From Calditrichota bacterium (GTDB lineage Bacteria; Calditrichota; Calditrichia; Calditrichales; J004): a stretch of DNA of 64,000 bases. Shown in pieces: positions 316-61,934 of the stretch. A program made the translations under genes and the position numbers. Each line of letters starts with the position of its first letter. Within the stretch, counting starts at the first letter, position 1. The notes below the pieces were generated by a model. That model searched no databases. It was given only the letters and a program-made list of their open reading frames with translations, and was not told the DNA's origin. The stretch covers positions 18,333 through 82,332 of the forward strand of contig JAJRVW010000017.1 of NCBI GenBank assembly GCA_024277115.1, given 5' to 3'.

Positions 316-2553
316 TTACTTAACAAGTAACATTTTTCTTGTACTATTAAAACTACCAGCTTTGATTGTATATACATACATACCAGATGCAAGGTTTGTA
401 GCATCAAATGTAGTTGTATGGCTACCAGCAACTTGCTTTTGGTTAACCAATGTAGCTACTTCACGACCTAAAATATCAAATACCTTTAGCTCAACTTTTG
501 CAGCTGTAGGCAATAAATAGTTTATGGTTGTAACTGGGTTAAACGGATTTGGATAATTTTGATGCAATTCAAACTGATCTACAACAACAGTTGGATCAAC
601 AATTGCCGTAGGCCTATTTGCTTCACCAAACCAATCAAATACAGGAGACGCAGGGTTTAGTTCATTGATAACCCAGAATGTACGGGCTGAATCAGCCTTT
701 GCAATCATGTCTAATCCTAATGGATCAAGGGCCCAGAAAGAAGCTTTCCAGTTTTCACCTTAGTTACGTGCAGCAACGGCAGCGCCACCATTATTTGGAT
801 CAGTTAAGATTGCTGTACCAGCATCAAGGGTCATATTGTCAATCCAGTTAGAAAGGCCTAAAGGACCTGTAGGATTGTAAGACAATACGGATGTATCATT
901 ATTAGCGTAAAGAACATCCATCCAACCTGTCAAAATATCACCAGAAACATGTTCGATAATCCATGGAAGAGTTTCATCATTACCATTAGGACCATAGTTA
1001 ATATCTTGTCCGCCTAATGTCTCAACTCCAAGATAATCTCTTTCAAAAGAACCAACAGGGAAGGTTGTATCAGCAAATCCAGAGATATACCCATAATCCT
1101 GACCTGTAAGAAGAAGATTTCTATGAGATTCGGCAGTAGCTTGTTTCATCCACTCCATATAAACAGGACCTGGATTAGGAGGGCTATTAAAAGGACCATC
1201 GCCCATTATATGATACAACTGCTCATAATTAGAAAGCAATTCAACTGAAAGCGGACCAAATGGTGCTTCCCAGAAGTCAACTCCCCAATACCAGTTTGTA
1301 TCAGAAGGTAAGCCTGACAACCAAAATGCATTGATTGTGCCAATTCCAAAGTTTGTATCATCGTAAGCAACCAAAATAGTATTAACTGCTTCAAATACAG
1401 TATAAGTTACAGGCTGGCTTGAAGTAGAAAGATCATTTACATCAGTAGCAACGATATAATATGTTACTTCAGATCCAGGAGCAAAACCGGGGATAACACC
1501 TGAAAAATCAGGCTCAGTTCCAGTCATTGCAACTGAATTTGTATCACCATCGACAACATAATACAATGTAGCCGATGCAACACCAGCAGAACCACCAGAT
1601 GGGTTGTCATCTGTGATAGATGCATCAACAGTCCGTGGGTCTGTAGAAAGTGTTGTTGGTAAGCTTGTCATAGAAGCAATAACAGGAGCGCGATCACCTG
1701 TAAGAACTACTGCAACATTAAAATCCCAGCTGTATAAACGTGTCCACCAACCATAATCGTCTGCAGACAAACGACCATTTCTGTATAATTTAAATCCGGT
1801 AATGCCAAGCTGGTTACTTGCAAGCCAACCTGAACGGCCCGCGTCGAGTGTTTGGCCATCATTCTTCGTAACAACACCAAATAACTCACCAGTTACTACC
1901 TGAGGGTTAAACCCAAGAAGATCCATGCTCACCCAGCTTTCTACGCCATTTTCAATAGTAATCGGCGCACCTTCACCAAGATCAGACCATAAGTCTGCAC
2001 CAAATGGGCTTCCCCATTGATTGGTTTCGCCCTGGCCTTTTTCTATCCAAGCGCCGGTTACGTCACTATCTTCTTCAAAACCACCAACATCATTAAAACC
2101 ATTACCTGTGGCTTCATAATATCCCCACCAGGCAGGGCCGGTAGATTGAGTTGATTGAATCTGATCTCTATCCCATGCCATGCTTACAAGCTTAACACTA
2201 ATAGCTGTGTTTTCGTCATCAGACGGCATTACAGAAACTGCAGTGATATCCATTTCTGTTGGGGCTTCAAACCACTGAACCATATAATCCTGACCAAAGA
2301 AGCCAAAGTTTACATTGTATGCAGAATGAGGTGCCCAGTTTAAAGTATCAATCGTACCATTAAGAGCGTCTAAAGACTGATCATAAGGTGTGATTTTACT
2401 AAAACCGCGATCTGCATTAACAGCAGTACGGATTTTTAAGACTTCATTTGCAGGACCTGCAATAGAGCCTCCCGGATTAAGAGTAACTTTGCTTTGAGCT
2501 AAAAGCAAAGCTGGAAGTAATAAAGAGAGAGTAAAGGTAAAAAACCTTTTCAT
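316..2553 (-). pseudogene. T9SS-secreted extracellular protein interrupted by an in-frame TAA at 760-762 (597 aa body plus C-terminal sorting domain)
   Basis: ORFs 760..2553 and 316..708 are in the same frame. The join reads ...[40 protein letters not shown]... The downstream part has a T9SS type A sorting domain ([17 protein letters not shown]...GREVATLVN...MLLVK); the upstream part has a signal peptide. Confidence 0.8.
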
Positions 2554-2752
2554 AATACACTCCTATATTGATGAATGATACAGTTAATTAAATTAATTAG
2601 ATTAGGTTTAAGGTGCTTCCCGGGCTCGAGCATAAACATAATACAATCAAAAAAACCTGTCAAGTGTTTTTATTAAAGCTTTGATTATTTAAAATGAATG
2701 GTCGGTTTTATGATTTAAGCCGTATTTATTACAAAAAAAATGCTATTTCCAG

Positions 2753-4930
2753 CTAACGTATTAAGATAAAGCGCACGTAAACGGGCTTATTTTTGTCATT
2801 TATTTCAGCTATGTACATTCCGCTGGCAACTGGATTTCCGGCATCATTTTTACCATCCCAGCTGGCAGTTTTCGAACTATAACTTTTTCTAAATACCTGC
2901 TGGCCTAGTGTGTTGTATATTTTTAATTCAAAATTGGAAGCGCTACCCGTATATTTTATTGTTACAAAATTGGAACCTGTTGCGGGAAAAGGATTTGGCG
3001 AAACAATCATCCTCGACTCGCTCGATGTCCCTGAAAAAGGTGTGGCTAACTCCATACGGATCATCCAACTGCCCGTAAGTTTTTGACCAGATAATGTTTG
3101 AAGCTCGTCCAAACTCTTGAATACCTGAAAAGGCTGCTTTAAAAAAGACCGCCCTATATGGGTATTTCCAGTAACGTCTACATACCCCATGGCGGCATTG
3201 CCCACAAAATTAATGCCGGCATCAAAATACTTTCCTTTATCACGTATATATTGTAAATCTTCCACATCTATACGTGTCCAACCTGTGTTAACAATATTTT
3301 TTACAAGGAAGGATTCAGAAGATGGATTTCGGTTTTTTGTTGAGAGCGAGGTGTTGTAAAGGTGAACATTTACATCGCTCGATCCCCCAGAGTTATAAAA
3401 CTCGATTGATTTTAATAAGGTTGTGTCACTCTCGGAAATAAATTGAATGGCATTTGTATTCTGAGAAGACGTAATGGCAAAGGTCGGTTCGTCCGCGCCA
3501 TACTGCACTGTTTTAAGATTGTATTTTTGTGTTGCACTCGCATTAATCGAAATACTCTTGCCTTGAGAAGAATTATTTAAAATATACAGTGTGTAGGTAT
3601 GAAACGCTTCACCAAAGCCAACTTCACTTATGTTTGTGGAGAATAGTTCATTATAATATGAAGTATTACCAAAGCCAGTTTTATGTACAAAAAGATTCTC
3701 AACAGATGTCCCTGAGAAGGAAAAACTTAAAGAATCACCATTTGTAAATTCAATTACCCTAAACGAATATGCGGCAAGTGAGGTATCTTTGCTGAAACTA
3801 TAATTGACGACCCTATCGTTAGGAATAGCTTTTATATATCGTAATGCAGACCAGTTAAAAGAATACTCCGGGGCAATACCCGGATCGTTTAAAGCGAGTG
3901 TCTTAAAAAAATCTTCGGTTATCGCGTCAATATTTTTACCAATATTTAGATTGGCAAGGGCGCTATTTATGCCGTCCATACTTTGCTTGTTGTTTTTTGA
4001 AATTTCAGTTATAAGTGACAACCCATATTTTTCGTATAGATAATATGTCCACAAAGCCACACGCGAATAATGCGGCAGGGAATTTTCAGCGTTCCATGAA
4101 GAAAGTCTTAAATGTGTGTTTTTTAGATAGTATTGTGGCGTCCTTAATCCATAACCGCATAAAAAAGAAGACAGTTCAGATAAACCTTCGTTTACCCAGG
4201 TTTTCTCGCTTCTGTCATTTGCATATTGGATAAGGTGCTGAAACTCGTGCGAAACCGTCCCAAGAACACTTCGCGTATTATATGTGGCATTCCCATTTAG
4301 CTCGTTATAAATGCCAGGATACGTATCAATATATAAGATGTCCGCTTTGTTAGAACCAGCATTGGTCGTTTGGTCGCCCGGATTAAAAAAGCCACCGAAG
4401 AATGATCCCGAGCCATCCCAGCCGTCTTGTATGTCGGTTAGAAGAAAATCAACTTTGGAATTTCCATCAAAATCAGGTGGATCTCCAAACACTTGAACGT
4501 CAATCTCGAAGATACCCTTATTGCGGTCCAAACTGCCCGATGGCGTTGTATTGATCAAACCATTATAAATGCTCTCAATTACCGAAGTAGTTACATGGTC
4601 GTTGTTTAATTCAGCTTTTTCTACCCACACATTTATTTGGCTATCGGTTTTTTTTAGTACAAAAAGTTTGCTGTCAAACGTAGGCGCCTGCGGATTTTTG
4701 AGGTTTAAGACAATAAACTTCTGCTCATCGCCAATTTCTGCGTTTGTTTTTTGAAGGCTGGTTAGCTTATAAAATTTTGATAGATCATTTTTTTTCAAAT
4801 CATCAAAATATTTATTCACATATTCTTGCGAGGGCATTAACGGTGTTCCAGAAACACGTGGCTCGCTAAAGAATGGTTCCTGAGCGGTTAAAACGGTTAC
4901 ATAAAGAAAGAGTATAAGTATTTTTAACAT
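2753..4930 (-). CDS. Secreted gluzincin-type metalloprotease with C-terminal T9SS/FlgD-like sorting domain
   Basis: Signal peptide; HEFQH followed by NEGLSE; C-terminus SPNPF...LKIYNTLGQQVF...NPVASGMYIAEI. Confidence 0.75.
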   Translation of the reverse strand: MLKILILFLYVTVLTAQEPFFSEPRVSGTPLMPSQEYVNKYFDDLKKNDLSKFYKLTSLQKTNAEIGDEQKFIVLNLKNPQAPTFDSKLFVLKKTDSQINVWVEKAELNNDHVTTSVIESIYNGLINTTPSGSLDRNKGIFEIDVQVFGDPPDFDGNSKVDFLLTDIQDGWDGSGSFFGGFFNPGDQTTNAGSNKADILYIDTYPGIYNELNGNATYNTRSVLGTVSHEFQHLIQYANDRSEKTWVNEGLSELSSFLCGYGLRTPQYYLKNTHLRLSSWNAENSLPHYSRVALWTYYLYEKYGLSLITEISKNNKQSMDGINSALANLNIGKNIDAITEDFFKTLALNDPGIAPEYSFNWSALRYIKAIPNDRVVNYSFSKDTSLAAYSFRVIEFTNGDSLSFSFSGTSVENLFVHKTGFGNTSYYNELFSTNISEVGFGEAFHTYTLYILNNSSQGKSISINASATQKYNLKTVQYGADEPTFAITSSQNTNAIQFISESDTTLLKSIEFYNSGGSSDVNVHLYNTSLSTKNRNPSSESFLVKNIVNTGWTRIDVEDLQYIRDKGKYFDAGINFVGNAAMGYVDVTGNTHIGRSFLKQPFQVFKSLDELQTLSGQKLTGSWMIRMELATPFSGTSSESRMIVSPNPFPATGSNFVTIKYTGSASNFELKIYNTLGQQVFRKSYSSKTASWDGKNDAGNPVASGMYIAEINDKNKPVYVRFILIR

Positions 4931-4933
4931 ATA

Positions 4934-5272
4934 TTATTTGCTTATATCCGGATACACTGTAGCAAGTTTATCCAGGTCTTTTTCAGAAAGAAAATTAAAC
5001 TCAATACCAACCTGAAAAGAACCATCCGCATGTTTTTTTTGGTTCCTGACCACACCCTTTGCTTTTACAACTTCATTGCCTACACCAAGGGCCAACTCTA
5101 TGTGCAACCCTGTTTCTATTGTTGAACTGGTGATAATTGCAATCCCGGTTCGGCTCATATCAATTGTTGTGGCCACACCTTCATGAAAAACCTGGTTATC
5201 TGCATTAAACAACCGGTACGAAATAAAATTTTTGGAATCTACCCTAAACGATTCCCTGCTTTCAAACTCCAT
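4934..5272 (-). CDS. PilZ domain protein
   Basis: RESFRVD...IDMSRTGIAIIT...VKAKGVVRNQKK...QVGIEF resembles the PilZ pattern. Confidence 0.65.
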   Translation of the reverse strand: MEFESRESFRVDSKNFISYRLFNADNQVFHEGVATTIDMSRTGIAIITSSTIETGLHIELALGVGNEVVKAKGVVRNQKKHADGSFQVGIEFNFLSEKDLDKLATVYPDISK

Positions 5273-5316
5273 CCTGTTCCCTCAGCTTTATCGGTTTAGT
5301 TTTACATTTTTAGCTT

Positions 5317-5562
5317 TTACGTATATTTTATTATTTCAAGTACATCCTCATCAAGCGTATCTTCGTCAAAATTCAGTTCTTTAATTTCTTTTAAGATGAG
5401 TTTAATTTTTGCCTCCGTATCCCACTTACGGTTCAAATAAAGATAATCATCCTGATAATACCGGACCAATCCACCCTTAAAATTGCCGCGGTCGGATTTT
5501 ACAGTAATATTTTGGGATTCTAAAAATAATATGAGTTTTTGAAGTTTTTGATCGTTAGTCAT
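5317..5562 (-). CDS. Small conserved-looking hypothetical protein (81 aa)
   Basis: Complete ORF with plausible start and stop between two annotated genes. Confidence 0.5.
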   Translation of the reverse strand: MTNDQKLQKLILFLESQNITVKSDRGNFKGGLVRYYQDDYLYLNRKWDTEAKIKLILKEIKELNFDEDTLDEDVLEIIKYT

Positions 5563-5750
5563 GTTTTATTGGAAGTATTATCTGAAATAATAAAATAAAA
5601 TCCAAATTATTATTTTGCAATTTAAAGAATAATCAAAAAAAAATGGTGCACTTATCCAACCCGATAAATGAACAGCGATAGCTAAACCAACATTATTGCA
5701 ACATTTTTTGATGGAGCCAAAACGCAAACGGTGCATAGCTGCAATATAAA

Positions 5751-6833
5751 TTATAAAAACTGCTCAAGTTCTTTATAGCGTAACTTATCCACAATCTCTT
5801 TTACCCGTTGCGAACTTTCCCTTTTGCAAATAAGGATGGCATCATCTGTCTCAACCAAAACGATATCCTCAACATCAATAGCCGCGATAAGTTTTTTGTT
5901 TTCTGAAAAGAAAAAATTATTTTTTGCGTCCAACTCAATGGTTTGGCCCAATTGCCTGGCATTACCATTTATATTTTTGTCTGCAAGATTATAAACAGCC
6001 TCCCACGAGCCCAGATCGTTCCAGTTAAAATCGGATTCAATCACACTCACTTTTTTAGCGCCTTCCATTATGGCATAATCAATGGAAATAGATTTTACAG
6101 CTGAATAAAGCTTAAGGATTCCCTCGTCCATTTCGGGGGTGTCAATCTTATCAGAAAGCTCGGGCAGGCCTTAGAACAGCTCGGGCAATTGTTGCTCAAA
6201 CTCGGCAAGTATGGAAAATGTAGACCAGACGAAAATGCCCGCGTTCCAAAAGAAATCACCACTTTCAATAAAACGCTGTGCGGTATCAAGATTTGGTTTT
6301 TCGGCAAAGGTTTTTACAGGATAGATTTTTTGACCTTCTAACTCCACCAGTTTTGAGTTGCGTTGAATATAACCGTAGCCTGTTTCCGGGTAGCCCGGTT
6401 TTATGCCTAAAGTAATTAAAGTGCCAGAGTCCAGCGCATATTTCTCTGCTGTTTTTAATATGTTTTGGAACCCCTCTACATCCCCAACAAGATGATCGGC
6501 AGGCAAAACAGCCATGGCCACATTTTGTTTATTTTCTCTTTTATTGATTATTGTGGCCGCTAAGGCAACACAAGGCGCGGTATTTTTTCCAAAGGGCTCG
6601 GTAATGACATTTTTTTTAGGTAATTGCGGAAGCTGGTCAAGCACTTCTTCCTTAAGGTTTTCTCCCGTAATAACTAAAATTTTATCATTTTCGGTAATAT
6701 CTTTTATACGGTCATACGTTTGTTGCAACATGGTGCGATCACCAAATATTTTCAGCAATTGCTTAGGCATGTTTTGCCTGCTCCTGGGCCAGAATCGCGT
6801 TCCGGCTCCGCCGGCCATCAAAACAATATACAT
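5751..6833 (-). pseudogene. manC: Mannose-1-phosphate guanylyltransferase interrupted by an in-frame TAA at 6171-6173
   Basis: MYIVLMAGGAGTRFWPRSRQNMPKQLLKI..., ETGYGYI, FAEKP, WNAGIFVW motifs. ORFs 6171..6833 and 5751..6131 are in one frame: ...QQLPELF*GLPELSDKIDTPEMDEGILKLYSAVKSISIDYAIMEGAKKVSVIESDFNWNDLGSW... Confidence 0.85.
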
Positions 6834-7757
6834 CTAATCTCCTTGATCCTCTTTAATAGTATCTAAATAATTTAATGCAAATTTGTTGGATTTGTCCATT
6901 TCCAACACGGCATTAAAAACTTTTTGCGCCTTATCCAAATCTGCGCTTAAAAAATAGGCCTCCCCCAAATTATTCAGGGCTTCTACATAACGTGGTTTTA
7001 TGGTAAGTGCTTTTAAAAATAATTTTATGGCAATATCGTAATTTTGCGCCACACGGTTTAAAAAGCCCAGATTATTAATTGCCTCCGGATAATCTTTTTG
7101 TAAACGTACGGCTTGTTCCAAATGGTGATAGGCGCTATCGTAATATCCTTCATAAAAAAGGGCGACCCCTAAATTATTATGTACTTTGGCATAATCCGGG
7201 TTAATATTTAAGGCGCGCTGATACACCGTTATTTGTTCCTGATAATCATCTTTTTTAGCGGCCTCTTCAGAATACTTAAATGCATCCATGGCAATACTGC
7301 CCGTCATAACCTGGTTTACAAGCTCCAGGTTCTTTTTTGCCGGCTGATAGTCCGGATTTATTTTTAAGGCCAGTTTAAATTTATCTTTTGCTTCCGGGTA
7401 CCTCTCGAGAAGAAAAAGCAGGTAACCACTGTTATTTGCAGCTTCATAATAAGTTGGGTCATACTCAACCGCCCTCTTAAAGGCACGCGCTGCCTCATTT
7501 AGTTTTCCTAACCTGTGGTAAGCAATGCCCACAAAATTGTGCAGTTCGGCATCCTTTGGGATTATATCCAACGCATCCCGCCACGATACAATGGCCAGGC
7601 TGTCATCACCCGATTTAAAATGTGTAAATCCAACCGAGACATAATTTTCGGCCTTATTCAGATCAGGCTTTTTGGGCCCATCCGGTTTTGAAGAAGAACA
7701 TGCGGCATAAAACTGGGCAGCGAGCACAAGCAGAATAAAAATTTTAATCTTTTTCAT
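6834..7757 (-). CDS. TPR-repeat lipoprotein
   Basis: Lipobox AACSSS; repeated TPR motifs (HNFVGIAYHRLGKLNEAARAFKRAVEYDP and others). Confidence 0.85.
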   Translation of the reverse strand: MKKIKIFILLVLAAQFYAACSSSKPDGPKKPDLNKAENYVSVGFTHFKSGDDSLAIVSWRDALDIIPKDAELHNFVGIAYHRLGKLNEAARAFKRAVEYDPTYYEAANNSGYLLFLLERYPEAKDKFKLALKINPDYQPAKKNLELVNQVMTGSIAMDAFKYSEEAAKKDDYQEQITVYQRALNINPDYAKVHNNLGVALFYEGYYDSAYHHLEQAVRLQKDYPEAINNLGFLNRVAQNYDIAIKLFLKALTIKPRYVEALNNLGEAYFLSADLDKAQKVFNAVLEMDKSNKFALNYLDTIKEDQGD

Positions 7758-8036
7758 GGTTCACCTAACTTTAGGGTTTAAACAAAATTGCATTACCAAG
7801 CTTAAGACTTCGTTTCTTTATTTTGGGTCTTTTAATGGTGGGCATGGTTCTACCGGTATCACTTAATTTTCAAAACACATCAATCTAAAATTAAATTGCA
7901 GGCATACATGCTCTTCGGTAATTGCCTTATAAATCAGGAATCTATAATCGTGTTTTAAAGTCATTTTTAGATATATATGCGCTTCTACTTCAATTTAAAA
8001 TAGGTCAAAATTTGATTAATACCTGGGCTGACCTTA

Positions 8037-8852
8037 TCACTGATCATACCAAAGTTGGCCGGTAAATACTATTTTGGCCGGACCGGAAATTAATTTTTGA
8101 GTATGACTGAATATAACATTTAATTCGCCACCTTTGGTAAAAACCTTTATTTTATCTGCTATCTTTTTTTGTATCGAATTGACAACAATGGCCGAAGCTG
8201 TTATCCCCGTACCGCATGACAACGTCTCTCGCTCCACACCACGCTCATAAGTGCGTACAAAAACAGACCCATCTTTCTGATTTACAACAAAATTTACGTT
8301 TGTCCCCTGTGGCGAGAACGCAGGATGCCCACGAATATATTTCCCAAAACTTTCGATTGCCTGGTATTTAAATTCTGGACTACATAAAAACACAACATGT
8401 GGCACACCGGTATTTGTATAAAATCCGCTCTCCACCCAGGTTGGGGGATTAAATTGCCCAATATTTATTTTTTCGATTTTCCCTGAGGCCAATACATCCA
8501 ATTCAATTAAGTTTTCTGAATGGTATTGCCCATAATGTTCACCATCGTCTGCCAGAAAATTAAAGCTGATATCCTTCTCCACCCAGCCCATTTTAAAGGC
8601 AAAATTGATTGCAGCCCGGCAGCCGTTGGCACACATCTCGCCACGCGACCCATCAGAATTGTAGTAGTGAAAGATAAAGGCCAGTTTATCATTTTTTTCA
8701 AGGCCAATTAGTCCATCTGCGCCAATCCCTAAACGGCGGTCACAAAGTTTTTGAATATTTTCTGAATTAAAAAAAGAAGATGGAAGGTTTTTATGGTCGA
8801 AAAGAATAAAATCATTCCCGGTTGCCTGGATTTTAAAAAAGTCCAATCGCAT
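8037..8852 (-). CDS. dapF: Diaminopimelate epimerase
   Basis: FFKIQATGNDFILFD, MCANGCRAA and ERETLSCGTG active-site motifs. Confidence 0.95.
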   Translation of the reverse strand: MRLDFFKIQATGNDFILFDHKNLPSSFFNSENIQKLCDRRLGIGADGLIGLEKNDKLAFIFHYYNSDGSRGEMCANGCRAAINFAFKMGWVEKDISFNFLADDGEHYGQYHSENLIELDVLASGKIEKINIGQFNPPTWVESGFYTNTGVPHVVFLCSPEFKYQAIESFGKYIRGHPAFSPQGTNVNFVVNQKDGSVFVRTYERGVERETLSCGTGITASAIVVNSIQKKIADKIKVFTKGGELNVIFSHTQKLISGPAKIVFTGQLWYDQ

Positions 8853-8860
8853 AAAAAACC

Positions 8861-10552
8861 TTATTTTTGTGGGGCCGGCAAGGTAAGTTTTATGCCGGAA
8901 GTCTCCCAGCGTTTGCGCACTTTGACACTATCGCCCCCAACAACAAATGGCTCACTGAAAGAAAATGGGAACAACCCTCCGGCAGAATATACCGCATTGC
9001 TGTCTCCATCAAAAAAGGATGAAAGCCGATAAATGCCCTCGGGCAAGTAATTTATTTTAAACCCATTTTTCCTATCTATTTTTGTTGAAAAAGAGGCGTT
9101 CTTTTTGCCAATTTCTGATGCCGTCACAAAAACAGTGGCGGCAGAGGAATTATTACGAACCACGGTTCCCGTAATTTCACCATAATCATCACCACTATTA
9201 ATCTTAATATGGCGGATACGCACGCTATCAGAAAGGGAGTCGCCCCACACGTTTTTTATTTTAGACAAATTTACTGTGAATGTATATATACTGTCTAAAG
9301 TTAAATTTTCTTTTGGTGTAAACTCTGCTTCAAATGCCGATGGAAAATTAAATATCCCTGTCACGGTATCACCATTTTGCCTGGTCAGGGTCAGATTGCT
9401 CACTAACGATTTTTTATCGAGCGGATTATTTACTTCAAAATAAAAACTTAAGGATGGATGGGCATCCCAAACACTGTCCTTTGGGCTAAGCGTAACAACC
9501 CGAAATGTATCCTGTTGCGTAAATGAAAGTGCTGTAAATGAAAGGGATGTATCCTTGCCCATGTTTAAACTGCTATCCGAGAAGGATTGAATAAAACTGG
9601 TGTACACTTTTCCACTGTCCATCGGGCTGGTATAAACTTCCAGCGTATTTTTCTCAGTAAGATTTTGGGAAACGGCCAAAATGGTAACAGGCGAGGTCGA
9701 AATGCTGTCACGGAGGGAAATCTGTTTTTTTGACTGAATTACGATGGGCTCGGAAAGCCTCAAATTAATTTGACGATTATGGATTGGCCGCACAGAATTT
9801 AAACGTGGTGGGAGTGTATCAATTCTTGTTATTCTGTAATTCAGCCCAGTAAAAACAAAATCTGAAGAGTCCAAAAGCACATCGGTATAAGGCAACCCGA
9901 TTTTTTCAAAATCAGCATCAATTTTTAAATTATTATTTTGGTCATCCACGGCAAACACACGGTAGCGCCCAAGTTTTAAATAATTGAGTAGAAATTTTCC
10001 ACCCTTCCCCGTCTGTGAAATATATTCCGGTTTATTTTTAACAAAGGTCATTGTATCGGGGCGTGAGTTAAATGCGAAAATGGAATAAGTTTGATTTTTT
10101 TTTGTACCATAAACCTTACCAGAAATCCGTCCATGGTCAATTTTATCACCTGTCGAAAATGCCAATTGATAGCTTTCGGCCAGCTTATTGTTTCTCAAAT
10201 CCTTCACAGTGGCGCCAATGCCCACTACATAAGTTTGGTCTGTTTTTAAGGAATCTGATAAATGGATTTCGAGGTCTACATCCGATGTCCATTCAGGTTT
10301 AAACCCGATTGGCGGGGATATAAAAATGCTGTTGTTTATTGATGATTCATCAATAGATTCGGAAAAGCTGATTTTAATATCAACAAGATTTTTTACCCCG
10401 GTGGAATCAGGGGCAGGGAAAGTAAAAATGATTTCAGGCGGTGTTTTGTCTGGAGGCCCACCACCAGGCGCCCTTTTGGAAGCACACCCGGTAAATATAA
10501 AAAGTCCTGTTAAAATGAAAAAAAGACTTATTTTATGATTGATTGGGATCAT
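8861..10552 (-). CDS. Ig-like (SbsA/Big_5 type) domain lipoprotein
   Basis: TGCASKRAPGGGPPDKTPPEI...PAPDSTGVKNLVDIKISFSESI, typical of FCB-group Ig-like lipoproteins. Confidence 0.75.
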   Translation of the reverse strand: MIPINHKISLFFILTGLFIFTGCASKRAPGGGPPDKTPPEIIFTFPAPDSTGVKNLVDIKISFSESIDESSINNSIFISPPIGFKPEWTSDVDLEIHLSDSLKTDQTYVVGIGATVKDLRNNKLAESYQLAFSTGDKIDHGRISGKVYGTKKNQTYSIFAFNSRPDTMTFVKNKPEYISQTGKGGKFLLNYLKLGRYRVFAVDDQNNNLKIDADFEKIGLPYTDVLLDSSDFVFTGLNYRITRIDTLPPRLNSVRPIHNRQINLRLSEPIVIQSKKQISLRDSISTSPVTILAVSQNLTEKNTLEVYTSPMDSGKVYTSFIQSFSDSSLNMGKDTSLSFTALSFTQQDTFRVVTLSPKDSVWDAHPSLSFYFEVNNPLDKKSLVSNLTLTRQNGDTVTGIFNFPSAFEAEFTPKENLTLDSIYTFTVNLSKIKNVWGDSLSDSVRIRHIKINSGDDYGEITGTVVRNNSSAATVFVTASEIGKKNASFSTKIDRKNGFKINYLPEGIYRLSSFFDGDSNAVYSAGGLFPFSFSEPFVVGGDSVKVRKRWETSGIKLTLPAPQK

Positions 10553-46697: not shown

Positions 46698-46711
46698 CTT
46701 AAGGATATGCC

Positions 46712-47926
46712 ATGCTTCTCAAACTTGCCTGGAAAAATATCTGGCGTAACAAAAAACGGACCCTGATCGTTTCGGCCTCGGTATATTTTGCCGTCATTCT
46801 TGCCGTTATTATGCGTTCGGCCCAACTTGGGTCATACAGTTACATGATCCATTCATCGGCAAAAATGCAAACCGGCTACCTGCAAATCCAGGGCAAAGGC
46901 TTTTGGTAAAACCGTTCCCTCGACAAAAGCATCAAACTATCCCCTGCTTTTTTAGATTCGCTTGCCGGGCTGCCGCACATCACCTCAATCACCCCAAGGC
47001 TGGAAACATTTGCCCTGCTCTCCCGCGACAGCATCACAAAAGTGGCGGCTGTGGTTGGCATCGATCCACAAAAAGAAGAAGCCATGACCGGCTTAAAAGA
47101 ACGGCTTGTTTCAGGCGCATTCCTTACAAATTCCGATACAGGCATGTTGTTGGCCGAAGGGTTGGCCCGGAGGATGAAAATCGGGATTGGCGATTCCCTG
47201 ATTCTTTACGGTTCCGGTTATCACGGGCACATTGCCGCCGCTGCGCTGACAGTGCATGGCATTGTAAAACTGCCTTTGCCCCAAATGAATAATCAACTGG
47301 CTTTTTTGGAATTAAAAAACGCACAGTTTATTTATGCCGCGCCGGGGCTTATAACTTCCCTCTCTATCATGATTGATAATATTGCCCATTTGGCCCAAAC
47401 CGATACGGCTGTGCATACATTGATCAACAAAAAAAGCACTGTGATGACCTGGGACGAAATGATGCCCGAGCTGGTGCAAAGCATACAGGTAGACAATGCC
47501 GGCGGCCTGATAATGGTTGGGATTTTATACATGGTTATCGCCTTTGGGATTTTTGGGACCATTATGATGATGACAGCCGAGCGTGAGAAGGAATTTGGTA
47601 TTTTAAACGGCATTGGGATGAAAAAAAATAAACTGATTTTTGTCTCCATCCTTGAAAGTTTTATGGTTTCATTTATTGGGGTAATTGCCGGGGTCCTCTC
47701 AAGCATCCCAATCACCTATTATTATAAAAGTAACCCCATTGTGCTAAGCGGCGACTCCGCCAAGGCCTGGGTAAGCCTGGGGATTGAGCCCATAATGACT
47801 TTTAGCGTCGATCCGACAATTTATCTCTCGCAATCAATAATTGTATTTATTATTGCGTTGATTTGTGCATTCTATCCGCTGTTTTTTATAAGTAAACTGA
47901 ATGTTGTATCGGCCATGCGTAAATAA
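46712..47926 (+). pseudogene. FtsX/LolE-type ABC permease interrupted by an in-frame TAA at 46907-46909
   Basis: MLLKLAWKNIWRNKKRTLIV...GYLQIQGKGFW*NRSLDKSIKLSPAFLDSLAGLPHITSITPRLETFALLSRDSITKVAAVVGIDPQKE...; 46712 and 47042 share the same frame. Confidence 0.85.
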
Positions 47927-47977: not shown

Positions 47978-48023
47978 GCCCTGGTCATAAAAAAAATTAT
48001 ATTTAATTTGTTAGGGAAAATCC

Positions 48024-49241
48024 ATGTTACTTCAGTTGGCCTGGAAAAATATCTGGCGTAATAAAAAACGCAGCACGGTAATAATTTTTGCGATCTTGTT
48101 GGGATTATGGGCTGGGCTTTTCTCCGGTGCAACCATGATGGGCATGGCCTAATCCATGGTAAATTCGGCCATAGAACGCTATCTTGGCCATATTCAAATC
48201 CATACAAAAAAGTTTCAGGATGACAGGCAAATTGGTTATGACCTGAAAAACCTGGAAGCGCTTCGAAAAATTATTGGGGCGCAAGATTCTATCCTTGCTT
48301 TTTCGGAACGGACAATTATCGAAGGGATGGCCGCTTCGGCAGCTTCATCCTTTGGTGTGCAAATTACCGGGATCGATCCGGCCAAAGAAAAAAAGGTGAT
48401 TGGCCTGAACAAAAAAGTGGTAGAAGGCGGCTTTTTAGAATCAAAAAGAAAGAACCAGATCCTCGTCGGGAAAAAACTGGCCGCGCGCCTTAACCTGAAA
48501 ATGCGTTCTAAAATAATTCTAACTTTTCAAGACAAAAAGGGTGAGATAATTTATCTGGCATGCCGCATTACCGGCATCTTTAAAACCGAATCCACAACTT
48601 TTGATGAATCGACGGTTTTTTTAAAACAAAAAGATTTGATGCGTGCCTTACAGATTAAAAAACCGATGATACATGAGATTGCCATCCGTGTAAAATCGCC
48701 TGATTTTGTAAACAAAGTGGAAAATAATTTGGCCGCTTTACTACCCGGTTTAAAAATAGAAAGCTGGAAAAACCTGGCGCCCGAACTGGCCTTTATCTCA
48801 TCATCGATGGAAGTATTTACTTATCTGTTTGTTTCAATCATCCTGTTTGCCCTGCTGTTTGGCATCACAAATAATATGCTGATGTCGGTGATGGAACGTA
48901 TCCGCGAGCTGGGCATTTTAACTGCCGTGGGTATGAAAAAATCCCGGATTTTTATAATGATCCTTTCCGAGACCATCATGCTCTCTTTAACCGGCGGAAT
49001 TTTAGGCATGGTTTTAGGCAATATAACAATTGACTATTTTAATGAGACAGGGATTGATCTTTCGGCCTTTGCCCATGGATTGGAAAATTTTGGTTCGGGT
49101 ACGATGCTCTACCCTTTTTTACCGGCGCCCATGTATATCGGCTTAACACTGATGATTTTTGTGGCCGCTAATTTTGCCGCCATTTTACCGGCATGGAAGG
49201 CGACGCATCTTGTTCCGGCCGAGGCGATCAGGACGTATTAA
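48024..49241 (+). pseudogene. FtsX/LolC-type ABC permease interrupted by an in-frame TAA at 48150-48152
   Basis: MLLQLAWKNIWRNKKRSTVIIFAILLGLWAGLFSGATMMGMA*SMVNSAIERYLGHIQIHTKKF...; continuous frame. Confidence 0.85.
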
Positions 49242-52366: not shown

Positions 52367-52388
52367 ATAATGCAATTTTCAGCATTAT
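52367..52388. promoter_or_regulatory. Candidate VapB operator palindrome
   Basis: ATAATGCaattttcaGCATTAT, 30 nt upstream of the vapB ATG. Confidence 0.5.
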
Positions 52389-52476
52389 GCAACAAAAGCC
52401 AGTTGGCCATATAAAATTATTTGCCATCAAAATCGCTCGACCCTACTTTTAACCAAACAAACCCAACAGGACAGTC

Positions 52477-53610
52477 ATGAAAACTCTTTCAATCCCTTTT
52501 TTTATCTTATTCTTCCTTTTCATCAACCAACTTTTTTGTGAGGACTACCCGATGCGACCTACCAATGAAAACCACATCCTTTTTGTCGGCACTTATACCG
52601 GGGACAGTACGCAGGGCATAGAAGTTTATGAAGTAGACCAAACCGGGTTATTGACATTTAAAAGCATCCAGAAAAATATAGAAAACGCTTCATACCTTGC
52701 CATTTCGCCGGACAAAGAATTTTTATATACTGCCAATGAAATCACCGATTTCACTGATAAGAAGGACGGCTATATCAGCGCCTATAAAATTAATCAAAAA
52801 ACAGGTGGCCTTACTTTTATAAATAATATGTCTTCGCAGGGCGGCGCACCCTGTTATATAACAACCTCACTGGATGGAAAAATTTTACTGGTCAGTAATT
52901 ATTTGGGCGGGAAAGTAGCAACATTTATGACAGATAACGGGCAGATAGGAAAGCCGGTATCCATATTTAATCAGGATAAAGAGGGGCTTAAAATAATGGC
53001 CCCTAATATGCCGCACATGCACTCGATACAACTTAACACGCAAAACACCATGGCCTTTGCCAGCGATTTGGGCAATGACAAAATCTATTTTTACGGTTTT
53101 GATAAAAAAACGGGTCAGCTTTCTTTCTCGCAAAAATCGATTCAGTTAACAAACGGCGCCGGGCCGCGTCATTTTGAGTTTAGCGCCAATGGCCGATATA
53201 TTTATATTTTAAATGAACATAACAGCACCATCGAAATTTTTAATTTAAGTACACAAAACCGTCTACAAATTATTGGAACCATTCCCAAAGATTTTTCAGG
53301 TAAAAACTATCCTGCCGATATTCATTTCGCGCCATCGGGAGATTACCTGTACGCCACAAACCGCGGGCACAACAGCCTGGCTATTTTTAAGGTTGACAAA
53401 AAAAAGGGAACACTGGAATTTTTAGGGACAGAACCGGTTAATGGCGATTGGCCACGGAATTTCATGATCGACCCGCACGGAAAATTTATCCTGGTGGCCA
53501 ACCAAAAAAGTAAAAATATTGTTTCTTTTAAGATTGGAAAAGGCGGTAGCTTAAAACTAATCCAAAATACAAAAACAGTCGCTTCACCTGCTTGTTTAAA
53601 AGTGTTGTAG
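52477..53610 (+). CDS. Lactonase family protein (6-phosphogluconolactonase-like 7-bladed propeller)
   Basis: ILFVGTYTGDSTQGIEVYEVD...GGAPCYITTSLDGK...GAGPRHFEFSANGRYIYILNE...VANQKSKNIVSFKI. Confidence 0.87.
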   Translation: MKTLSIPFFILFFLFINQLFCEDYPMRPTNENHILFVGTYTGDSTQGIEVYEVDQTGLLTFKSIQKNIENASYLAISPDKEFLYTANEITDFTDKKDGYISAYKINQKTGGLTFINNMSSQGGAPCYITTSLDGKILLVSNYLGGKVATFMTDNGQIGKPVSIFNQDKEGLKIMAPNMPHMHSIQLNTQNTMAFASDLGNDKIYFYGFDKKTGQLSFSQKSIQLTNGAGPRHFEFSANGRYIYILNEHNSTIEIFNLSTQNRLQIIGTIPKDFSGKNYPADIHFAPSGDYLYATNRGHNSLAIFKVDKKKGTLEFLGTEPVNGDWPRNFMIDPHGKFILVANQKSKNIVSFKIGKGGSLKLIQNTKTVASPACLKVL

Positions 53611-53618
53611 CCTTCAGC

Positions 53619-54185
53619 TTATATACGGAAGGAAAGCCCCAAATTAATCAGGCCCTTATATCCCACGCCAAAAGCTGTATTCAGGTAAAGCCGATGCCCT
53701 ATTTTCATCTCGATCAGTTTTAAATAATACGCGGGGGCAAAGCTGGTACTGCCTTTGAGGGACAATCCAAAATCACTACGGACCTGCGCATCTATATACA
53801 CGATTCCCAGCCCGAAACCGGCATAAGTTTGTAACCAGCCCCAATCTACATAACGGAAACTCCACTCGGCAGCGAGAATGTATTCCTGTTTAAGCAGAGT
53901 CCCAACATCATGCGTTCCTGCCATGATATGTTCACCATCGCGGTCATAACCAAAATAGAGGCCATAACTTCTGTCATCTCTGTAATAATAGTCATAATTT
54001 ATATTGAACTGAGTTGGCGCATCCTGTTCATAATCATACTTATCCGAGTTTTTATACACATCTTTATAAGCGCGCAATTGGGACGAGGTTGCGCCGCTAA
54101 CAGAAACCTTTATTTCATGTTTGTGTTCTTGTGCTACGAGGATGTTTAAGAATAAAAAAAACTGTACGAATATGAATGTTTTCAT
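53619..54185 (-). CDS. Putative small outer-membrane beta-barrel protein
   Basis: Signal peptide MKTFIFVQFFLFLNILVAQ; alternating aromatic/polar strands; terminal GLSFRI. Confidence 0.5.
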   Translation of the reverse strand: MKTFIFVQFFLFLNILVAQEHKHEIKVSVSGATSSQLRAYKDVYKNSDKYDYEQDAPTQFNINYDYYYRDDRSYGLYFGYDRDGEHIMAGTHDVGTLLKQEYILAAEWSFRYVDWGWLQTYAGFGLGIVYIDAQVRSDFGLSLKGSTSFAPAYYLKLIEMKIGHRLYLNTAFGVGYKGLINLGLSFRI

Positions 54186-54335
54186 TTTGTTTATCCCGGA
54201 AGACTGAAAGTTTTATGTATTGAGATAAGTTTAATTCCTATCTGTTTTAAAATCAACCATAAAATTTGATTAATAAAAATTTTGCATCTAATTCAAATTC
54301 CTTACATTTAGGCCACAAAAGTTAAGGAGCACTAA

Positions 54336-55829
54336 ATGCCAAAAGAACTACCTACCAATAATGAAGACTTGCATTTAATACGCATTTTAAAAAGTGTACG
54401 CACATTGCGCCACCTTGGCGACAACGAGCTAAAAGAATTTATCTCGTCCTCAAAACGCTTTAAATACGAAAAAGGCGAAACAATTTTCTCCGAAGGCCAA
54501 ATCGGCACAGCTGTTTATATTTGCCTGGATGGCATGTTTGTCCTGGAAAAATATGGCCATGTTTTAAAAGTGCTTAACAAAGGCGAACTCTTTGGCGAAA
54601 TCGCCCTGATTGATGAACGCCCGCGAACCGGAACGGTAAAAGCCAAAACCGATGGCATGTTACTTGTGCTGGAAAAATCCCAAATTGAAGAAGGGACGAC
54701 GCTGTCGGCCTCGACTTTAATGAAAATTTACCGTGGCTTTTCCGAGCTGATTACCTCGTACCTGCGCGAAGGCGAAACCCTTTATGACGAGATGGATGTC
54801 CTGCTTATCCAAGATGGAGGTTGCGCACCGGGCTATAATCCTGTAACAGCTTATATTACCGAATATCTCGAAAAAGTGGGCCGCAAAGTTTTTATCGCTG
54901 CCGATGGTTTCCGCTCGCTTGTTTCAAATTCAACATCCGATTACCGCTGCCTTATATATGATTTTACCCGTTTTCGTAAAATGGAACATATCCGTGGCGT
55001 AGAATTTGCCCCGCCATTGCGTACAGCCCGTGGCGCTGATTTCCGCAGTGAACGTTACCCGGATTTTAAACATCCTGAAAATCAAAAAATAGCCGTAGAA
55101 AATATCGTAGGACGAAAGGTAAAAACGATTGTCGGCATTGGTGGCAATGGCACTTTTGCAGGTATGAACGCCATCAGCCAACTTTTACCCGAAGGCATCC
55201 AAACCTTTTTTGTGCCCGTAACAATTGATAGTGATATTTGGGGCACTTCATGCATTGGCGAGTTTACCGGCGTGGAAGTGGGCGCCGAGAAAATCCGGGG
55301 TTATATGGCCGATGCGCGCACCCATAAACGCTGCTACATTATCGAAATGATGGGTGCCCGTGGCGGTTATCATGCCTTGCATTCTTGCCTGGGGGCCGGC
55401 GCACATTTAGCGGTGCTGCCCAACTCAAATTATAATATCAGTAAAATTGCGAAAATGATTAACCCGCGTACTGAAACGGTTATCGTTGTTGCCGAGGGTT
55501 ATAAAGAAAACATCCGTAATGAAGAAGGTTATTTGGGCAATGCGGCAGAATATTTTTATGACCAGCTTATCAAGGCCGGACTGGATACAAACCAGCGTGT
55601 TATTTGTGAGGGGTTTTCGCGTGACATCCGTGGTGCCCTGCCCAATAATATGGATATTACACTTGCCCTGCGTTTTGCGCGAAAACTATGCGATATGATT
55701 GGCGATGGCGAAACACGTATGATGCCTGCCGTTCGTGCCGGACAGGAATATGCCATCCCGTTTGATAAAATTAATACCGATAACTCGGTCGAATCGAGCT
55801 TACCCAGCTTAGCCAACAGATTGTTTTAA
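54336..55829 (+). CDS. Cyclic-nucleotide-binding domain fused to 6-phosphofructokinase-like domain
   Basis: CAP_ED: RFKYEKGETIFSEGQIGTAVYICLDGMFVLEK...GELFGEIALIDERPRTGTVKA. PFK-like: QDGGCAPGYNPV, GIGGNGTFAGM, VPVTIDSDIWGTSCIGEFTG, EMMGARGGYHA. Confidence 0.85.
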   Translation: MPKELPTNNEDLHLIRILKSVRTLRHLGDNELKEFISSSKRFKYEKGETIFSEGQIGTAVYICLDGMFVLEKYGHVLKVLNKGELFGEIALIDERPRTGTVKAKTDGMLLVLEKSQIEEGTTLSASTLMKIYRGFSELITSYLREGETLYDEMDVLLIQDGGCAPGYNPVTAYITEYLEKVGRKVFIAADGFRSLVSNSTSDYRCLIYDFTRFRKMEHIRGVEFAPPLRTARGADFRSERYPDFKHPENQKIAVENIVGRKVKTIVGIGGNGTFAGMNAISQLLPEGIQTFFVPVTIDSDIWGTSCIGEFTGVEVGAEKIRGYMADARTHKRCYIIEMMGARGGYHALHSCLGAGAHLAVLPNSNYNISKIAKMINPRTETVIVVAEGYKENIRNEEGYLGNAAEYFYDQLIKAGLDTNQRVICEGFSRDIRGALPNNMDITLALRFARKLCDMIGDGETRMMPAVRAGQEYAIPFDKINTDNSVESSLPSLANRLF

Positions 55830-56036
55830 TCAAAACCTTATATTAAGACGCAGATGATATAAAATCACTCTGTGTCTTATAACTTTTAAAATACTTTAAA
55901 ACTTTTCAGCTACCTCCTTCTCACCGGCACATTTTATCCCTAACCATTTTTATTTTTATTATGGCAGTATTTTTTAGTATATTGTGGGCACGATACATAC
56001 CTTTTCAAACTACCCTACAACTAACAGGCCATTACT

Positions 56037-57953
56037 ATGCGAATTATTTCTAATTTTTTTATTATAGTTTTTATATTTCTGTTTTCCATTAATCTTTTCT
56101 CGCAGGATTTTGGTGAAATAAGTGATGAAGAACTGCAAATGACTTCTATCGAAGAAGACCCTGATGCGGACGCAGTAATTTTATTTAACAAAAGCCAGAT
56201 AAATATTACACCGGATTTTACATTAGAAATAATCCGGCATACTCGGATAAAAATACTTACCGAGGCAGGCAAAGAATGGGCAGACATATCAATCCCTTAT
56301 TATTACAAAAATAAAATTATGGGATTGGAGGCAGCATCTTATCTTCCCAATGGTGATGAATCTGAACTTGACGATGACGATATATTTAATGAAAAAATCA
56401 GAAATTATAAATATAAAAAGTTTGCCATCCCCGGTGTTGAAGTTGGCTCGGTCATTGAATATCAATACACTGTTTTTTCTGATTATATCTCAAATTTAGA
56501 TCCATGGTATTTCCAGGCCTCGGAATATACAAAATTGAGTGAAATAAAAGTGTTACTCCCACCCGGTTTTGATTACAGTGCCTTACAAAAAAATTGGTAT
56601 CCACATGATATAAAAAAATCTAAGGAAGAAGTCTGGAACCCTTATCGAGCAGGGAAGAAAGTAACCCAGTTTGTATGGACAGGAAGAAATTTGCCGGCCA
56701 TCCGTAAGGAGCCCTATATGAATGCCTTTCATGATTATTATGCCCAAATCCTGTTTCAATTAGTCTCTTTTAAAAATGAGTATTTTAACAAAACCTATGC
56801 TAAATCATGGGACGACATCGCAAAGCACCGCTACGAAGTTTTTGAATCCAATATTGCGGCAGGTGGCGACCAACTCGATTTTATTGAAAGCCAAATTAAA
56901 GAAATTAGCGATCCCCTCCTTAAAACAAAAAAAGTGTTTGAGTATGTACGTTCCGAAATTAAAACTGAAGATGGCGGAGGCTGGTATCCCAGCGAAGACC
57001 CCGAGACCGTATTTGAAGAGAAAAAGGGAAACGCCAGTGAAAAAAATGTTCTGTTCCTAAACCTGCTCAACCATCTTGGTATAAAGGCAGAACCTCTGTT
57101 AATTAGCACAAAATCACATGGAAAACTCTTTAGGGATTGGGTACAAACCCAGCAATTTAACAGGACGATTGCTTATGTAACCATAGGCAAGGAAAAGTAC
57201 TTTTTAGATACAAGTGATAAATTCTGCTCATTTGGGTGTTTAACGCCAGAGACAAAAGTGGGTTTTGGTTTTCTTATGAAAGAAGAATCAGGAAAAATAA
57301 TTAAGATCAAACCTCTTAAAGTAAAGAATAAAACAGAAATTATCACCAATGCAACCCTTGGTGAAGATGGTACGATTTCAGCCGAAACCCAGATAACATA
57401 TAGAGGGTTCAGGGCGCTGTCTGAACGGAAACAGATTAACAAAAAGAAAGATATTTCGGATATTATTGATGATAAACTGAGTGACTTTAGTGTAGAAGCA
57501 GATATTGATACTTTTTATTATTCCGGGATTGATTCTTTAGACGCTCCTATTGAATTAAACATTAAATACAAATTACCAGCATACACAGAAGAACTTAATG
57601 GTTCTATCTACTTTACCCCGCCTTTTATAACTATGTTAACCGAAAACCCATACGAAAAAGAGAAAAGGGATTTTCCCGTAGATTACTCGTATGCTTATGA
57701 CACCCGGGAAACATATAATTTAACTCTTCCTGAAAATTATGTGATTGCAGAAAAACCAAAGTCCAAAAAAGCGCGCATGAAAAAATTAAATTTTTCAAAA
57801 ATATTTTTTGGCACAACAAATAAGCTGGAGTGCAAAAGAAACTATTCGCGTAAACGTACACGGTTCGGGGTGAATGAATATCAGGTTTTAAGAAGCGTGT
57901 TTGATGTAATCGTCGATTCCGACCAAGATATTGTTGTCTTTTCAAAAATATAA
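56037..57953 (+). CDS. DUF3857/transglutaminase-fold protein A1, catalytic Cys and His absent
   Basis: Signal peptide; GNASEKNVLFLNLL and QFNRTIAYV align with YGDCKDLSTLMISML and QFNHCIAFV of the neighbouring paralogs. Confidence 0.8.
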   Translation: MRIISNFFIIVFIFLFSINLFSQDFGEISDEELQMTSIEEDPDADAVILFNKSQINITPDFTLEIIRHTRIKILTEAGKEWADISIPYYYKNKIMGLEAASYLPNGDESELDDDDIFNEKIRNYKYKKFAIPGVEVGSVIEYQYTVFSDYISNLDPWYFQASEYTKLSEIKVLLPPGFDYSALQKNWYPHDIKKSKEEVWNPYRAGKKVTQFVWTGRNLPAIRKEPYMNAFHDYYAQILFQLVSFKNEYFNKTYAKSWDDIAKHRYEVFESNIAAGGDQLDFIESQIKEISDPLLKTKKVFEYVRSEIKTEDGGGWYPSEDPETVFEEKKGNASEKNVLFLNLLNHLGIKAEPLLISTKSHGKLFRDWVQTQQFNRTIAYVTIGKEKYFLDTSDKFCSFGCLTPETKVGFGFLMKEESGKIIKIKPLKVKNKTEIITNATLGEDGTISAETQITYRGFRALSERKQINKKKDISDIIDDKLSDFSVEADIDTFYYSGIDSLDAPIELNIKYKLPAYTEELNGSIYFTPPFITMLTENPYEKEKRDFPVDYSYAYDTRETYNLTLPENYVIAEKPKSKKARMKKLNFSKIFFGTTNKLECKRNYSRKRTRFGVNEYQVLRSVFDVIVDSDQDIVVFSKI

Positions 57954-57954
57954 C

Positions 57955-59892
57955 ATGAATGTTTATCGAAAAAAGGCGTGGAATTATATGAAGGTTTTGA
58001 TCTTATTTGTTTTTATTTTATCCGTTAATGTTTTTGGCTTTGTAATACCGCAAGAGCTTGTCTCAGATACTAAATTAGATTCATTAAAAAAAGAGGCCGA
58101 TGCTGTTGTACTTATGGACAAAATTGTTTTTACCGTAAACAGCCAAACCGATGCGGAGTTATTTCATAAAAAACGGGTGCTAATAAAAAACAAGCATGCA
58201 TTAAAATATTGCAGGCTCAACTTTTGGGGATCAAATCTAAAAGAAATTACTGATATCTAAGCACATTTAACAGATACAAATGGCAAGATCATAAAAGAAC
58301 TGGACGATGATGATATCGAAGAATCTGCATACACGCCCGGCTATGCATTATATGAGGACAAAACAAAACAGTACTTTGAGCTCACCTCAAAATCTTTTCC
58401 CTTTATAATCGAGTACTCCTACAAAATCGAATACGAGTCTTTATTTTTTTGGCCCGATTGGCGTCCGCAGAATAATATTCCTGTTGTTTCATCCTCCTAC
58501 AAACTTATCTGTGACACAGACATTCGCTATAAAACAAAGACAATTGGCTTGAACGTAAAACCCAAAAGAATAAAAGTGAAGAGTGATTCTGTTATTATCT
58601 GGAGTGCACGAAATATCCCACCCCTGAAAAAGGAACCCTGGAGCCCAGCGGAATCTCAAGTTCAAAATGCGGTATTATTTGCCCCGGTTGATTTCGAGTT
58701 AGGTGATTCACAAGGCTCATTTTCGGATTGGAATGCCATTGCCAAATGGTATGGCGAGCTCGCCAAAGACAGGTACGAACTCCCCGAAGAAACCCAAAAA
58801 GGAATAAGCCAGCTTGTTTCAGGCATATCAGACGAAAAAGAAATTATAAAAACGCTGTACAAATACATGCAAGATAAAACCCGCTATGTTGCCATCTATC
58901 TTGGGATTGGCGGATGGCAACCGCACTCTGCCGAATCCAGCTATACAAACCGCTATGGCGATTGTAAAGACCTGTCGACCCTGATGATTTCCATGCTGGA
59001 AGTGGCAAATATAAAAGCGTACCCGGCTTTGGCATTAACCCGTGACGCCGGAATGGTAGACGCTGATTTTCCTTCCAACCAATTTAACCATTGCATTGCT
59101 TTTGTGCCGCTGGCGCAAGATACGGTTTGGCTGGAATGTACTGCAGATTTTATTGACCCGGATGATATGCCCCATAGTATTGAGGGAATTAATGTGCTGG
59201 TTGTTAAGGGAAATGGGGGAGAACTTATTCGTACACCCCAAAAGAATGCACAATCAAATAAATGGCGATCTCTCATAGAAGGGAAATTAGATAAAAGGGG
59301 TGGGCTTACATTTAAGAGTATAGCCGATTTGACGGGCAACCGGAAAAACTATCTACTACAGTTCATTGGTTATAACAAATCAACTATTGAGAAGGAAGCT
59401 GTTCTTGCCCAACATAATAAGTATATAAATATTGTAAAAATTAACGACTATGCCATTACAGAGGTTAAATCAGAACATGAGCCATATCGAATAGAAGCAG
59501 AGGGAAAATATTTACGCTTTGGCAAATCCGCGGCAAATCGGATTTTTTTCAATCCGAATATATTTAACCGGGAAACAAGAGACGATATCCCGCAGGCAAA
59601 AACACGCACCTTCCCCATTAAACTTCTCTATCCTTATGTAGATTCAGATTCCCTGGCCATTAAAATCCCCAGAGGTTACAAATTAGAATCAGCGCCGGAG
59701 GCTATTACATTAAATACACCCTTTGCTAAATATAAAACACAGTTCGAGGTTAAAAATGGCTTTTTTTATTTCAAGCGCTATATCGAATATTCTAAGAATC
59801 TGATTCAACCTGAATTTTATGATAAATATGTTGATTTTATTACCAAAGTCGTAAAGTCAGACCAATCAAAATTTGTGTTTAAAAAGAGATAA
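57955..59892 (+). pseudogene. DUF3857/transglutaminase protein B1, Cys-His-Asp present, interrupted by an in-frame TAA at 58258-58260
   Basis: ...LKEITDI*AHLTDTNGKIIKEL... aligns with B2 VSEIKATITDTAGTIIKEL; NRYGDCKDLS, FNHCIAFV, WLECTADFID motifs downstream. Confidence 0.85.
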
Positions 59893-60014
59893 ACTTTGTT
59901 AAGTCAGTATTTATCCATTTCTTTAATCCATCTTTAAACCAGTATCAGATTTTGATCCTGTATTAACCATGAAACATCTTGTCGTAAAACTTTTTCATAT
60001 AACCGGTACGGATT

Positions 60015-61934
60015 ATGCGAAGTATTCCCCATTTTCTACTGACTCTTTTTATCCTCCTTTCAGCGCACCTTTATTGCCAGGAATTTGGTGAAATAAGTGA
60101 AGAGGAGCTTCAGATGACATCTGTTGAAGAAGACCCGGATGCCGATGTGGTGATATTATTTGATAAAGCAAACATAATTATAACAAAAAGATTCGGTTTG
60201 GAGATTGAGCACCACACAAGAATAAAAATACTAACAGAGGCCGGCAAAAGTTGGGCAGACATTAATATTCCCTATATCGACCCTGAAGAAATTGAAGATA
60301 TTGAAGCCCATTCTGTTTTGCCCAATGGACAAATATTTGAGTTGGACGACGATAATATATTTGAGGAAAATATAAAATCAATACGGATGACAAAATTTGC
60401 CATCCCCGGTGTAGAGGTTGGTTCTGTTATTGAATATAAATATTCACTTTTTTCAGAGGGTTTATTCAGCCTAAAGCCATGGTATTTTCAATCGACAGAA
60501 TTTACCCGGTTAAGTGAGGTCAGTGTACTAATTCCCACGGGCTTTAGATATGCGATTATTATTAATAACGGTACAAATATCAATTTGACGAAGTCAAACA
60601 AAAAGGTTTATGATATCAGGAGCCTAAGCAACAATGTAATCAAATACTCCTGGACGGGAAGAGACATAATGCCCTTAAAAGAGGAACCGTTTATGACCGC
60701 TTTTGAGGATTATTTCGCGCTTGCCCTTTTCCAATTGGTTTCATACCAAAACAGCTATATAAAGCTATCCTTTAAGAGGCCATGGGAAGAAATCTCAAAG
60801 TTTTATTCACCACTTCTTGATACATTAAGTTCTGGTACCGGTAAGCAAGATTCCCTAACAGTCAGATTTGACTCAACAGAATCAAAACCACTCGATAAGG
60901 CAAAAAAGATATTTAACTTTGTCAGGTCAGAAATTGAAACCGAAGAAAATAATTTATGGATTCCCGTACAAACCCCTTAAACTACTTTTAGCGATAAAAA
61001 AGGGAGCCCAAGCGACAAAAATTTATTATTAATCAATATGCTAAATAAGGCCGGATTAAAAGCAGAACCTTTATTGATTAGTACGAAAGAACATGGCTCT
61101 ATTTTTGTGAACCTGACACGAATTAGCCAATTTAACCGTATGATCGTCTATTTAACTATAAGAAGTAGAAAATATTTTTTAGATGCCAGCAATCAATTTG
61201 CACAATTTGGTTTCCTTACACCCAGCACAAAAGTAGATGTTGGGCTCCATATAAAAAAGAAAAATGGATTCCTGATAAATATTGTGCCGCTTATTTCCAA
61301 AAACAGGACAAAAATTATTACAAATGCACTACTGGATACAACAGGTAGTATTCATATTGAAAGTAATATAATTTTTAGAGGATACCGCGCACTGAACGAA
61401 CGCGAAGAAATCCATGAGAATAAGGATTTAGAGTCGCTGATCCAAGATAGGATTTCAAACTCTAATCAAACAGCAGAGCTGGATACTTTTTACTACTCAA
61501 ATTTTGATTCAATTGACAAACCATTACATTTAACAATAAAATATAAACTACCTGATTATTCCACAATCATTGGCAATCTCATTTATTTTACACCTCCGTT
61601 CATCACTAAATGGGATTCAAATTCTTTAGAAAAAGAGGAAAGGGATTTTCCTGTAGATTTTTCGTATAAACATGATACAAGAGAAACAATAAATATTGAA
61701 TTTCCCGCATCGTATAAAATCACTGACAAGCCTGAAACAAAAAAAGCTCTGATGAAGAAGTTATCTTTTTCAAAACTATTTTTTTCGACCGGAAATAAAT
61801 TAGAGTGCGTAAGAAATTTTTCAAGAAAACGAACGCATTTTGGCACATCCGAATATAAAAAACTACGTGATATTTTTAATTCCATCTACGAATCCGATCA
61901 GGATATAATTGTCTTGGAAAAAATGGCAAAATAA
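60015..61934 (+). pseudogene. DUF3857/transglutaminase-fold protein A2, catalytic residues absent, interrupted by an in-frame TAA at 60978-60980
   Basis: ...LWIPVQTP*TTFSDKKGSPSDKNLLLINMLNKAG... aligns with A1 GWYPSEDPETVFEEKKGNASEKNVLFLNLLNHLG. Confidence 0.85.

Follow-up and report, generated by a model that had tools for sequence, protein, structure and literature searches.

In the nuclear code of Blastocrithidia nonstop, UAA stands both for glutamate and for termination (PMC12153298), and in ciliates termination depends on context (PMC4967479). The bacterial reassignments given in the introduction of PMC8629427 concern UGA only, i.e. UGA read as glycine in Absconditabacteria and Gracilibacteria and as tryptophan in Mycoplasmatales and insect symbionts. 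Yeast in-frame stops for which a suppressor tRNA is missing have been ascribed to pseudogenes (PMC8629427). A screen of 250,000 genomes states that context-dependent stops with an amino acid meaning escape its detection; because such stops are not modelled, a dual UAA would be missed (PMC8629427).

The genome of the Calditrichota bacterium studied here resembles B. nonstop in that UAA occurs at glutamate positions inside genes and also serves as terminator. It differs from this eukaryote, in which UAG is likewise read as glutamate and UGA as tryptophan (PMC12153298); in the present genome the search for a decoder found none, and UAG does not serve as a glutamate codon. With the ciliates, eukaryotes as well, it shares stop codons occurring both as sense and as stop, but neither a rule of context nor an adaptation of its terminators is evident (PMC4967479). 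Two TGA codons at glycine and one at a tryptophan position recall the bacterial UGA reassignments as introduced in PMC8629427; here, however, TAA dominates and RF2 is intact. The yeast pseudogene cases are similar in that in-frame stops are sporadic and no suppressor tRNA was found, but the strong bias towards glutamate (GAA) seen here is not predicted by their case of tryptophan codons lost by transition (PMC8629427).

The window, i.e. the whole stretch of 64 kb that was analysed, lies on contig 186 of a draft of 4.97 Mb (255 contigs, 95.6% complete). By comparison of DnaA, the closest named relatives are Calditrichia MAGs within Calditrichota. Our comparators were G001, a genome of the same genus whose proteins are 78% identical, and four relatives at greater distance. 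An earlier note on the window had claimed six genes with one in-frame TAA each and family motifs kept beyond it. All six codons are present in the assembly with the frame continuous on both sides, and in the read-through proteins the family match either spans the site or is found on each side of it.

Two of the sites lie on the reverse strand. The TAA at 760-762 interrupts a T9SS-cargo-like gene (read-through frame 319-2562), whose sorting domain Por_Secre_tail is located beyond the TAA. In manC (frame 5754-6833, TAA at 6171-6173) the NTP_transferase match (residues 4-286 of the read-through protein) covers the TAA residue 221. At this residue G001 has Glu, encoded by GAA; three other relatives and the solved enzyme 2x5s likewise have Glu, and one relative has Asp. 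On the forward strand, two ABC permeases carry TAA at 46907-46909 (frame 46703-47923) and 48150-48152 (frame 48015-49238), and MacB_PCD and FtsX were matched in both read-through proteins. Their orthologs in the relatives are uninterrupted and have Glu or Asp in nearly all cases at the first site and Glu in most cases at the second (GM-x-ESM motif). The remaining two sites, also on the forward strand, belong to the DUF3857/transglutaminase proteins B1 (frame 57910-59889, TAA at 58258-58260, inside the DUF3857 match) and A2 (frame 60003-61931, TAA at 60978-60980). The alignment of the B1 codon with Lys, proposed from paralogs in the window, was not borne out: two of three paralogs have Glu and only one has Lys, and a relative also has Glu. 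For A2 the proposed Glu agrees with a relative, and the paralogs have Glu or Asp. Gene names at sites outside the named profile matches are our reading of sequence motifs.

The search for in-frame stops throughout the genome that the earlier note had suggested was run on 963 kb. A plain codon-usage scan was too noisy and was given up in favour of a dicodon model, with strong coding demanded on both sides of a stop. The raw junctions comprised 29 TAA, 4 TAG and 2 TGA, several of them being ordinary adjacent genes. After comparison with G001 and the four relatives, in which some apparent interior stops proved to be antisense shadow frames and were filtered out, 28 interior TAA sites were left, including the six of the window. 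TAA dominates, and its excess is genome-wide, the window (6 in 64 kb) being richer in sites than the other sampled sequence (22 in 899 kb). No convincing interior stop was seen in about 149,000 aligned codons of G001; we read the four listed there as lying near alignment ends or in frames that are short or antisense. Given this clean congener, the TAA excess is more than chance.

Genes bearing an in-frame TAA include dnaA, thrS, relA, trxB and a gene encoding a LolD-like ATPase, and the orthologs examined in relatives are intact. Comparison of the same codons in the closest relatives, another check that had been proposed, gave mostly Glu. Of 80 relatives, 79 have Glu at the DnaA site, and the site in the LolD-like ATPase is the position of the catalytic Glu of Walker B. 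Among the strong ABC_tran matches of the genome, two contain an in-frame TAA and none contains TAG or TGA. The closest comparator has Glu at 21 of the 27 determinable TAA sites, the other six being Gln (3), Lys, Asn and Ser (one each), and Tyr or Leu at none of the 27. Concentration at positions of one amino acid is what a dual code would show. If single-base nonsense to TAA were uniform, Glu would be expected at 24% of the sites (P about 6e-9 for the observed number); with Glu at 21 of 27, most sites therefore look like GAA-to-TAA changes. The sites are spread along the genes, and their 3' context is like that of sense codons.

The statement that TAG, TGA and frameshifts are lacking applies to the window but not to the genome. 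TGA occurs at a conserved Gly in leuA (L109:5136) and at L009:10625, and at a conserved Trp in a ccoP-like gene (L050:12485, CCC TGA TGG versus CCC TGG TGG in the congener). One TAG lies in gapdh (L101:15962). Another replaces the switch Ser in a receiver domain (L113:12873) and, read on the complementary strand, fits CGAA-to-CTAA, which amounts to the GAA-to-TAA change occurring out of frame. The -1 frameshifts number three and affect relA, a gene for a sigma-54 regulator and a UbiA-like gene; each sits in an A/T homopolymer (about A5, T5 and T8), and relA (L105:9249-11446) combines its frameshift in an A-run with an in-frame TAA at 10367. No frameshift-like pairs were detected in G001. Radical missense changes private to one genome were counted in 2,899 invariant columns of the affected genes, with 2 in this genome and 3 in the congener. 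Pseudogenes or a burst of nonsense mutations should show stops that follow codon supply, frameshifts and other decay; this is not the pattern observed, and other lesions are few.

Global reassignment of TAA, which the earlier note had excluded, is excluded here too, since TAA ends 198 of the 313 genes aligning to their end. The share of TAA among terminators is 63% compared with 66% in the congener, and no back-up stops were added (second stop within 5 codons in 27% versus 33%). The suggested suppressor tRNA with UUA anticodon was searched for by a tRNA census and by a pattern scan checked with ARAGORN, and none was found among about 40 tRNAs of the 95.6% complete draft. The scan yielded 34 matches versus 49 for a reversed control pattern, and ARAGORN recognised no UUA tRNA in 30 of the 34; one of the other four, at C237:979, has class-I tRNA spacing. 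There is only one intact tRNA-Glu, an ordinary one with anticodon UUC and a 5-bp anticodon stem. Two tRNA-Glu copies considered as suppressors (C61:14189 and 13785) were rejected, being truncated 3' copies with anticodons TTC and TCC. RF1 and RF2 are both full length with GGQ, RF2 carrying the SPF motif and RF1 PDT at the PxT site; the release factors show neither change nor loss. Of the features of a dual code, the genome displays the positional one, and none of those concerning tRNA, release factors and terminators was found in the draft.

A separate observation concerns short ORFs which, from their sequence, we take to be GIY-YIG-like. They lie directly behind tRNA-Glu (twice in tandem, L045:13700-14614, contig C61) and tRNA-Pro (L102:3083-3508, contig C236). 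Each is followed by a truncated 3' copy of its tRNA, as if a small mobile cassette had inserted at tRNA 3' ends.

The survey of 963 kb gives a GAA-to-TAA rate of 21 in 11,274 GAA codons, a value that rests on ab initio detection and on our assignment of the 21 sites to GAA. At this rate about 30 other first-position G-to-T changes (GAT, GAC, GGY, GGG, GAG) would be expected in 15,915 aligned codons; five were seen (P about 3e-8), which is near natural background. GAG-to-TAG was seen at most once versus about 9 expected, GAT-to-TAT and GGY-to-TGY showed no excess, and stops derived from TAC or TGC were absent and from TCA at most one. For GGA-to-TGA, 2 events versus 5 expected are compatible with that rate. 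A comparison pooled over regions around known stops was discarded, as it overstated the GAA effect; pooled rates are inflated because the regions fetched first had been picked around stops. Outside the regions picked for their stops, GAA-to-TAA (2/3,975) was not above other G-to-T changes (5/9,532); in part this is to be expected, as the picked regions contain most of the known sites. We took the rate over the whole survey as the fairer one.

C or G precedes TAA at 19 of 27 sites but only 43% of in-frame GAA codons (P about 0.004); this is an effect of sequence context beyond the codon itself. A count of GAA-to-TAA independent of reading frame gave 43 forward versus 51 reverse, with about 11 extra expected. 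A further context test was dominated by normal codon-context drift. In the window and the sampled loci, third codon positions have drifted towards C/G relative to G001, most weakly in G|AA contexts.

Taken together, we consider the in-frame TAA codons to be probably errors in the draft consensus, concentrated at GAA. GAA would have been written as TAA in the consensus sequence, accompanied by rarer other substitutions and by the loss of single bases from runs of A or T. The organism itself would carry undamaged genes with GAA at these positions; that the cell is free of the lesions is our inference. This reading is favoured because genes that must work are struck (dnaA, the LolD-like gene, thrS, relA and trxB), because the same assembly has TGA, TAG and -1 frameshifts while G001 shows no convincing case, because of the preference for C/G before TAA and the one antisense-type stop (L113:12873), and because neither a UAA decoder nor an adaptation to one was found. 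Of the three options left by the earlier note, i.e. readthrough or suppression, a recent nonsense burst and a systematic base-call or assembly error, the data lean to the last, but not to the generic G-to-T form, since GAA is struck and GAT, GAC, GGY and GAG are spared. The error reading gives no account of this selectivity. It is also weakened because radical missense is not raised, because other first-position G-to-T changes are so few and because a frame-independent excess of GAA-to-TAA could not be demonstrated. A literature search on stops and homopolymers in MAGs yielded nothing. We know of no sequencing error specific to GAA, which counts against a consensus error. Generic G-to-T sequencing damage of the 8-oxoguanine type that a consensus of low coverage had fixed is very improbable. 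It would cover GAA-to-TAA and the two TGA-at-Gly changes, all of them first-position G-to-T, but was dropped because the expected missense is missing: the deficit in other codons, calculated with the rate from the ab initio survey, stands against it, as does the near absence of stops from TAC, TGC and TCA.

Genuine nonsense, whether the lineage has a mutator phenotype or its genes have recently decayed in a burst, seems to us unlikely. The other stops and the three -1 homopolymer frameshifts would agree with it, as would relA with its two lesions, but a plain burst leaves the Glu bias without account, the 24% Glu predicted being far from 21 of 27 sites. A G:C-to-T:A mutator should further give D-to-Y and G-to-C missense and stops from Tyr and Ser, and these are lacking; moreover, the indispensable dnaA and thrS are struck without other decay. 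Alternatively, UAA may also mean glutamate, a suppressor tRNA-Glu (UUA) or another putative decoder reading internal UAA while a rule of context or position lets UAA end most genes. We regard this as distinctly unlikely. The predominance of Glu with no Tyr or Leu speaks for it, and most of the other residues (Gln, Lys and Asn, and Ser where other relatives have Asp or Asn) would tolerate Glu. Its restriction to TAA, with GAG-to-TAG hardly seen, the spread of the sites along genes with sense-like 3' context and the weakness of a generic G-to-T explanation point in the same direction. Efficient ochre suppression would, however, carry translation past the stop of about two thirds of all genes. 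UAA as glutamate was dropped as the main reading because no decoder and no terminator adaptation were found; the census, the pattern scan and the single intact tRNA-Glu (UUC), the intact RF1 and RF2, the nearly unchanged share of TAA terminators and the lack of added back-up stops all stand against it. It also leaves the frameshifts, the TAG at Ser and the TGA codons at Gly and Trp without explanation. Readthrough or suppression accordingly stays at low probability.

If the in-frame TAA codons are consensus errors, the draft shortens a few percent of the proteins of this species, essential ones included, and both annotation and screens that predict genetic codes would be misled; a consensus error specific to GAA would itself be worth knowing. 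It is improbable that a Calditrichota bacterium reads some UAA as glutamate by a putative decoder while keeping UAA as its main terminator, but if it does, the case would be a dual code of UAA as stop and Glu, so far unseen in bacteria.
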